Shown one piece after another: positions 43,365-46,685 of a stretch of DNA of 64,000 nt. Made by a program: the position numbers and the translations under genes. The DNA is from Oscillatoriaceae cyanobacterium M7585_C2015_266. GTDB taxonomy: Bacteria; Cyanobacteriota; Cyanobacteriia; Cyanobacteriales; Oscillatoriaceae. Under the pieces are notes generated by a model. It was not told the origin of the DNA, ran no database searches, and saw nothing but the letters and a program-made list of their open reading frames with translations. Every line of letters begins with the position of its first letter. The first letter of the stretch is position 1. The stretch covers positions 62,001-126,000 of the forward strand of contig DVEG01000029.1 of NCBI GenBank assembly GCA_015295835.1, in the 5' to 3' direction.

Positions 43365-44528
43365 ATGAAACTGGCAGCACGAATTGGTAAAGTGACACCT
43401 TCTTTGACATTGGCGATCGATGAGAAAGCCAAGGCGATGAAAGCAGAAGGCATTGATATTTGTAGTTTTAGCGCTGGAGAACCAGATTTCGATACGCCCG
43501 CGCATATAAAAGCAGCAGCAAAACAGGCGCTAGACGCAGGAAAGACCAAATATGGGCCAGCAGCCGGAGAGATGAAGCTACGAGAAGCGATCGCCCGCAA
43601 ACTGCAAACTGAAAACAGTTTAGATTACAAAGCAGAAAATATCATTGTCACAAATGGCGGCAAACATTCCCTCTATAACTTAATGATGGTGCTGCTAGAG
43701 CCAGGCGATGAGGTAATCATACCTGCGCCCTATTGGCTAAGCTATCCAGAAATGGTAACCCTGGCTGGTGGGGTGTCAGTCATCGTTCCTACTGATGCCA
43801 AAAGCAACTATAAAATTACCCCCGAACAATTGCGCGCAGCCTGTACCCCTAAAACCCGTTTGTTCGTGATCAATTCGCCCTCAAATCCTACCGGTATGGT
43901 TTACACGCCAGAGGAATTGAAGGCACTGGCAGAAGTTGTCGTCGAGAAAGATATCTTGGTTGTCTCTGATGAAATATATGAGAAAATTATCTACGACGGC
44001 GCCAAACAAGTCAGTATCGGCTCTTTCGGAGCTGAGATATTCGCCCGGACGATTGTTAGTAATGGCTTTGCTAAAGCATACTCAATGACAGGCTGGCGAG
44101 TAGGCTATCTGGCAGGACCAAAAGAAATCATAAAAGCAACTATTACTCTGCAAAGTCACAGCACATCTAATGTCTGTACTTTTGCCCAATATGGAGCGCT
44201 CGCAGCTCTAGAGAGTTCCCAAGATTGCGTCGAAGAAATGCGTCAAGCCTTTGCTGAACGGCGTAAGGTAGTGCTAGACTGGCTTAACCGTATACCTGGG
44301 TTAACCTGCCCAATACCGGAGGGAGCATTTTACGTCTTTCCCAATATTAGCAAAACGGGAATGAAATCCCTGCAATTTTGCGACGCGTTGTTGGAAAAGG
44401 GAGTTGCAGCAGTTCCTGGAATTGCTTTTGGCTCCGATGACTGTATCCGCCTCTCCTATGCAACTGATATGGCTACAATTGAAAAAGGCATGGCTAGGTT
44501 GGAAATATTTGTGAAATCTCTAATATAA
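43365..44528 (+). CDS. aspC: Aspartate aminotransferase (class I PLP enzyme)
   Basis: This 387-residue fold-type I aminotransferase interconverts aspartate/2-oxoglutarate and oxaloacetate/glutamate (some relatives also accept prephenate). Features are [11 protein letters not shown] (35-45), the [17 protein letters not shown] substrate lid, [11 protein letters not shown] (170-180), and the PLP lysine Lys237 in [17 protein letters not shown]. The arginine clamp is in the C-terminal SYATDM-like region. A mutated copy of its last 60 bases lies at 46228-46290 (see findings). Confidence 0.93.
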
Positions 44529-44668: not shown

Positions 44669-46144
44669 ATGTCTATACTATCCGAGTTGCAAGCCCGAGC
44701 CGCCGAATATCTCCAACAGCAGCAATACAGCGAAGCGATCGCTCTTTACGAGCAAAGCATTCAAGAAAATCCGAAAGTCATGTCCAACTATTGGCATCTC
44801 GGCTTAGCTTACTTGCTGCAAGGGCAAGAATCAGAAGCTCAGGTTACCTGGCTTTCAGCTATGGCACAGGCAAGTCCAGAACAAGTAAATGTATGGACTG
44901 AAGAACTCATTGAGGTTTTAGAAGCAGAAGCCCTCCGGCGCGAAGCAGTTTCTGATTTTCAAATTGCCTGGGTAATTCGTAAGTACATTTATGAATTTGC
45001 TCCAGAAAAATTTAACAATCTACTATCGATTGTATGGCTATCCTTACAAATAGAAGGATTTTCTCTACAACAAATCAAACAGGAAGTATCAAAATTTTAT
45101 ATTAGGCTTTTGGATAATAAAAGTAATGAATTTGATAGAGAAAAAACTTTACAAATTTTGAAAAGGTTTGTATATATAAATCCTTTCCACGAGATATTTG
45201 ATCTTTTTGAAGAAGAAAAATATAGTGATTTTTTTGTCGATAATAAAAAATGCTGGATAGAAATAAAAAGAGAATTAAGTGATGCTTATAATAATCGGGG
45301 CAAGATTCTATACCAGCAAGGAAGGTTCAATGAAGCTGCTATACATTTTCAAAAAGCAATAGAATTGGCTGAAGAAAACGAAAATAGAGAATTGGCTGTA
45401 AAGATTTCAAACATGGGGATGGCAATTGCCAAGCAGGGAAAATATGAAGAGGCTGTTAAATATTTTCAGCTAGCAGCTGAACGAGAGCCAAGCTTAAAAG
45501 AAGTCAATTTTTATTATATAAAATGGGCAAAATATGAAGCAGAAAATGCAAAAAAAGGTTATCAATTTACTCAAGATTGGTTTAGCATGAATATTCCATT
45601 ATGGGAAAGCTATTTGAGTAAGTTTGCTAATGCAGCAGATATCAATTTTTTAGAAATAGGTAGCTGGGAAGGTAGAGCTACATGTTGGCTTTTAGAAAAA
45701 ATACTCACTCACCCAACTGCTAGAATTACATGTATAGATACATTTAAAGGCAGCCTCGAACACTTACAATACGATCAAACATATCTGCAAACAATAGAAG
45801 AGCGATTTGATTTTAATATTGCGAGAACGGGAGGGGAAAAAAAAGTACAAAAAATAGTGGGAAGATCCCAAGAAGTGATGTGATCGCTACCCTTAAATTC
45901 CTACGATGTAATTTATATTGATGGCTCTCACCTAGCAGCTGATGTTCTGGCAGATGCAGTGTTAGCTTGGGAACTTCTCAAAGTAGGCGGTACAGTTATT
46001 TTCGATGATTATGATTTTGTGTTTCCTGAAAAACCAACTCAAAATACTAAAAATGGCATAGATTCTTTTTTAAGCTGTTACAGCGAAAAAATTAAGATAA
46101 TCCATAAAGGTCATCAAGTTATAATTGAAAAAAAGGCTGATTAA
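44669..46144 (+). pseudogene. TPR protein with C-terminal methyltransferase, interrupted by in-frame TGA
   Basis: The first 404 codons encode TPR units (about residues 4-110 and 207-280, e.g. GKILYQQGRFNEAAIHFQKAI). The start of a class I methyltransferase domain follows (FLEIGSWEGRATCWLLEKIL, about 328-347). Codon 405 is TGA (45881-45883). In the same frame the rest of the domain continues without a break for 86 codons: SLPLNSYDVIYIDGSH, DAVLAWELLKVGGTVIFDDYD, to TAA at 46142. The uninterrupted frame shows a recent nonsense mutation rather than a natural end. The body of the gene is more A+T-rich than its neighbours, a hint of separate origin. Confidence 0.85.
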
Positions 46145-46391: not shown

Positions 46392-46685
46392 CTACTGGCG
46401 AATATAGAAATCGCTAATTCCCTCAGGAGGTTGGTACTCAACCACAACCTCTTTGACAACAGCAGCACGAGGTCCTCTATGACACCATTGGACGATCGCC
46501 TCTACCGCCTCTTTCGTTCCTTCAAAAACAGCTTCTACTCTCCCATCAGGAAGATTGCGAACCCAACCGCCAACACCGAGCTGATTAGCTTTTTGCAAAG
46601 TTGTGTAACGGTAGGCAACGCCCTGAACTTTCCCTGAAACAATAACGTGAGCGCGGATTGACTCCGGCAGTGGTGGCTCATGCAT
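46392..46685 (-). CDS. acyP: Acylphosphatase
   Basis: This 97-residue small enzyme hydrolyses acyl phosphates. The phosphate-binding signature VSGKVQGVAYRYTT (16-29, with the catalytic Arg) and the Asn-containing second motif GWVRNLPDGRVEAVFEG (40-56) are intact. It is a full-length alpha/beta sandwich, cytoplasmic and monocistronic. Confidence 0.95.
   Translation of the reverse strand: MHEPPLPESIRAHVIVSGKVQGVAYRYTTLQKANQLGVGGWVRNLPDGRVEAVFEGTKEAVEAIVQWCHRGPRAAVVKEVVVEYQPPEGISDFYIRQ

Follow-up and report, generated by a model that had tools for sequence, protein, structure and literature searches.

Why is a TPR-methyltransferase gene with an otherwise open frame interrupted by a TGA codon, and why does this codon lie in an octamer that is a single base away from HIP1 (GCGATCGC)? 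The locus is located in the window (the whole analysed stretch of 64,000 nucleotides) from a cyanobacterium whose genome has filamentous cyanobacteria as its nearest relatives. The whole frame extends on the plus strand from an ATG at 44669 to a TAA at 46142-46144. The in-frame TGA (45881-45883, plus strand) is codon 405 counted from this ATG and is part of the octamer GTGATCGC (45880-45887), in which the other seven HIP1 bases are intact; one transition separates it from CGA. It closes an ORF of 404 aa (44669-45883, plus strand) that comprises the N-terminal TPR region and the start of the SAM methyltransferase domain. Downstream, a tail of 86 sense codons plus TAA (45884-46144, plus strand) holds the remaining methyltransferase domain with the motifs DVIYIDGSH and VGGTVIFDDYD and is still conserved. 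Both the position of the stop and the open frame with a methyltransferase tail behind it had been described in an earlier note made from the sequence alone, and both were confirmed. Upstream, an aspartate aminotransferase-like gene (43365-44528, plus strand) also adjoins the homologue in five other loci (L040, L039, L012, L014 and L022), so that the TPR-methyltransferase gene is vertically inherited. The acylphosphatase-like gene downstream (46392-46685, minus strand) is also found close to the homologue in L014. Searches of the surrounding sequence for Rfam families and promoters yielded nothing above chance, and a blastn search of plasmids found no match to the gene tail.

The comparison with relatives that the earlier note had proposed was carried out on codon 405. 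In all 22 independent homologues this codon specifies Arg (CGA in 14; CGT, CGC, CGG and AGA in two each), and in a more remote subfamily Val or Ile predominates at the position. Judged from this alignment, the ancestral codon was most likely CGA, and a one-step C-to-T change in CGA would be the simplest history. None of the near-full-length homologues (three same-family genomes) and none of the domain homologues elsewhere is interrupted. Thus, the gene bears the mark of a recent nonsense (pseudogene) allele, a stop inside a domain that relatives keep intact. The note had also stated that a change of T back to C restores both Arg and HIP1. For Arg this holds. For HIP1, the octamer is exactly GCGATCGC at the homologous place in six homologues (L044, L043, L085, L045, L014 and L022), and the same-family orthologues L040, L039 and L012 have CGA without HIP1 (GCGAGCGC, GCGAACAT and GCGAACAT, respectively), so that an ancestral HIP1 in the focal lineage is only inferred. 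GCGATCGC is proposed as the immediate ancestor because seven bases are intact and HIP1 recurs at this site in homologues. The mutated CGA very probably sat in such an octamer.

What would the stop do to the protein? The read-through product contains TPR repeats and matches Pfam Methyltransf_24 (PF13578) with residues 328-448, which places the stop within the methyltransferase domain. A model of this domain (mean pLDDT 90.7) displays a class I O-methyltransferase fold with MeT1 as closest structure (6g7d, E 4.7e-11, TM 0.73), and Rv1220c (5x7f) and Rv0187 (6jcl) are other nearest folds. In the model, the stop corresponds to domain residue 108. Core strands are predicted at 29-33, 55-60 and 96-100 before it and at 115-120, 140-148, 178-183 and 187-191 after it. 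Three core strands would thus remain, and the truncation would remove four others together with the D-x-x-Y-I-D-G-S-H motif. The truncated product is presumably dead as a methyltransferase, as the second half of the Rossmann-fold domain is gone, and its TPR part could persist.

The age of the lesion was assessed by branch lengths on a single topology, fitted once to the part upstream of the stop and once to the part downstream of it. The focal branch has 0.29 substitutions per site before the stop vs. 0.19 after it, and 23 of 24 near-invariant residues downstream of the stop are kept. This speaks against an old pseudogene, as there is no relaxed constraint past the stop. A tail as conserved as the upstream part indicates that the change either happened very recently, is polymorphic or is a sequence error. 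By this measure, the lesion would be either very recent or an error in the sequence. This agrees with the recency proposed previously, and a sequence error makes the same prediction.

A fault in the consensus or the assembly, or a variant carried by a minority of the sequenced population, with the gene intact in most or all cells, is an unlikely reading. It would account exactly for the undecayed tail, and the host assembly (3.98 Mb) is a draft in 35 contigs. Moreover, the interruption is the sole clear case of its kind in a 2.0 Mb genome sample (stretches L088-L148 and L203-L242 of G000): A single-stop scan returned 14 candidates, mostly neighbouring genes sharing one frame, and no second TGATCG-interrupted gene. 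By contrast, a random error would rarely be a CGA transition within HIP1, and nothing observed points to poor sequence quality. The same scan revealed a Rubisco-activase-like frame broken by TAA (MSAGE*ESPDAGEP; G000:C23, about 40482, L121) and an Uma2-like frame broken by TGA (DTIP*FPVPL; G000:C18, about 146485, L095). The latter is probably another CGA-to-TGA change, outside HIP1.

A tail conserved to the same degree as the upstream part is also what would be expected if the TGA were read through or if the split gene were still functional with its tail under selection. This is very improbable, as the stop is present in no relative. A C after a stop codon is a leaky context, but the base that follows this TGA is a T, and no RNA family match was found nearby. 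The next in-frame start in the tail is GTG at 45959. It is located deep in the domain core; translation restarting at this codon would therefore yield a fragment only.

We consider it likely that a recent single C-to-T transition converted a conserved Arg codon CGA, very probably that of the in-frame HIP1 octamer, into TGA and broke the TPR-methyltransferase gene, recently enough for the remaining gene not to have decayed. As a plausible addition, the cytosine may have been 5-methylated by the sole C5-methyltransferase of the host and then lost by deamination. The same genetic event could have arisen by ordinary deamination or replication error, with methylation uninvolved and HIP1 incidental. 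This is well within the possible, if short of an even chance. C-to-T is the commonest mutation in general, and HIP1 could be incidental because it is found everywhere in this genome: The window contains 44 copies vs. 0.84 expected, the genome 2862 (0.72/kb) and the 2.0 Mb sample 1467. On the other hand, of the 47,628 C-to-T changes that could create a stop codon in the 2.0 Mb, only 110 (0.23%) fall on HIP1 read in the frame xxG CGA TCG C. An accidental premature stop on a HIP1 CGA should thus be uncommon, a figure that is post hoc and concerns a single case. The coincidence is suggestive.

Methylation of the lost cytosine presupposes an appropriate enzyme. The genome encodes one C5-methyltransferase (PF00145; L108:1474-2808). 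It shares the recognition core NTLRAGT...PRPIH...REAARLH with C5-methyltransferases sampled from HIP1-rich relatives. Relatives without an enzyme match at E 1e-60 include the HIP1-poorest genomes, G003 (0.012/kb) and G014 (0.036/kb). The HIP1-rich G035 and G036 are also below this cut-off, and the G035 enzyme is diverged with the same recognition core. In Synechocystis, CGATCG carries m5C at its first C (PMC6604393). RCCGGY words are depleted in genomes with an RCCGGY enzyme (PMC4390886). In the 2.0 Mb sample, RCCGGY occurs at expectation and CGATCG is 5.3-fold over-represented. The shared recognition region, the non-depletion of RCCGGY and the abundance of HIP1 together suggest that the sole C5-methyltransferase probably, not certainly, targets CGATCG. 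An RCCGGY enzyme (DmtD) was considered and found less likely, as RCCGGY is not depleted and the endonuclease beside related plasmid enzymes fits no Pfam or NCBIfam family. Vsr (PF03852) had no match in the genome, while control genomes gave matches. The earlier attribution of the stop to decay of a methylated HIP1 therefore has a probable CGATCG C5-methyltransferase and no detected Vsr in its favour; deamination as the cause is no more than plausible.

Small Citrobacter and Klebsiella plasmids (L151:1273-3325, L153) also encode C5-methyltransferases, which share 58-60% identity with the HIP1-type enzyme of cyanobacteria. There they adjoin an endonuclease of no known Pfam or NCBIfam family, and the pair is possibly a CGATCG restriction-modification system.

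If methylated HIP1 sites decay, a genome-wide excess of TGATCG should be observed, as was also proposed in the note. The signal was weak. The hexamer TGATCG itself occurs about as often as expected (O/E 0.9-1.1), and the octamer GTGATCGC shows a roughly 2- to 2.7-fold enrichment. At synonymous sites, T is found in 17/402 cases (17 T : 385 C) at the methylated C (frame xGY GAT CGC), in 4/113 at the methylated C seen through the coding-strand A (CGA TCR) and in 31/802 (31 T : 771 C) at the unmethylated C (GCG ATY GC). The raw C-to-T rates are thus equal (4.4% for methylated vs. 4.0% for unmethylated C), which favours ordinary mutation. Relative to background codons, the odds are 0.086, 0.045 and 0.026 for the three frames in this order, and with correction for codon usage the ratio of methylated to unmethylated C is about 2.9 (95% CI 1.6-5.0, 2.0 Mb sample), which argues against it. 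Intergenic one-off variants lean the same way as the corrected ratio: C2-to-T (GTGATCGC) occurs 17 times, C6-to-T nine times and C8-to-T five times, though for 17 vs. 9 p = 0.17. Hence, the C-to-T excess at the methylated C is mild, has the predicted direction and depends on the codon-usage correction. In pairwise orthologous comparisons of other cyanobacteria, no excess was found: synonymous changes amounted to 0/943 at the first C vs. 108/4263 at the other C, with few independent sites. A congeneric comparison (G019/G046) had segments that are not syntenic and six usable sites. HIP1 is strongly maintained, with synonymous C-to-T variants at less than 1/10 of background codon odds, and this, too, speaks for ordinary mutation. 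Taken by itself, the lesion looks like an ordinary recent gene-breaking mutation.

HIP1 is accompanied by another frequent word in this genome. The non-palindromic HIP1 one-off GCGAGCGC/GCGCTCGC has 2117 sites vs. 357 for the reversed word, an O/E of 14 over the second-order expectation and equal density within and between genes. It is the second highly iterated word of the host genome. Most relatives have the word at low frequency or not at all, and one same-family orthologue carries GCGAGCGC at codon 405. The highly iterated sequences that Elhai described are palindromes, and a literature text search found no paper on GCGAGCGC/GCGCTCGC. In addition, GGCC is strongly under-represented (O/E 0.29; 2.0 Mb sample, G000).

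If methylation was the cause, the locus would be a concrete case of what HIP1 methylation costs in mutations; the function of this repeat is debated. As the evidence stands, it is a single recent gene break in an accessory gene. It is quite doubtful that CGATCG methylation makes each in-frame CGA-TCG HIP1 (110 in half the genome) a nonsense hotspot in HIP1-rich cyanobacteria that lack Vsr; strong maintenance would then have to be sustained at the expense of some repair or selection mechanism. The general result is that HIP1 positions in the host genome retain their cytosines more than 10-fold better than codon usage predicts. Furthermore, the codon-aware comparison of methylated and unmethylated cytosines inside HIP1 provides a workable decay test.

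Among known proteins, the class I SAM O-methyltransferases (PF13578; MeT1, Rv1220c, Rv0187) resemble the product in domain match and fold. In contrast to them, the protein found here has TPR repeats fused to the domain, which is truncated behind its third core strand. Known hotspots of m5C deamination include the Dcm CCWGG sites in E. coli. The locus would share with them a C-to-T change at a probably 5-methylated cytosine, and the host has no detected Vsr gene. In contrast to the Dcm sites, CGATCG in the host displays at most a mild genome-wide excess and is no demonstrated hotspot. The closest counterparts are systems in which the CGATCG C5-methyltransferases DmtC and M.Ssp6803I go with HIP1 (Elhai, 2015, PMC4390886; Synechocystis methylation study, PMC6604393). 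They are matched here by a HIP1-rich genome, a site one base off HIP1 and a single C5-methyltransferase with the recognition region of enzymes sampled from HIP1-rich relatives. In Synechocystis, m5C was determined at CGATCG (PMC6604393), whereas methylation in the present host is putative. The HIP1 literature consulted emphasises gain and maintenance of the repeat (PMC4390886, PMC6604393), whereas the reading considered here is decay by deamination.
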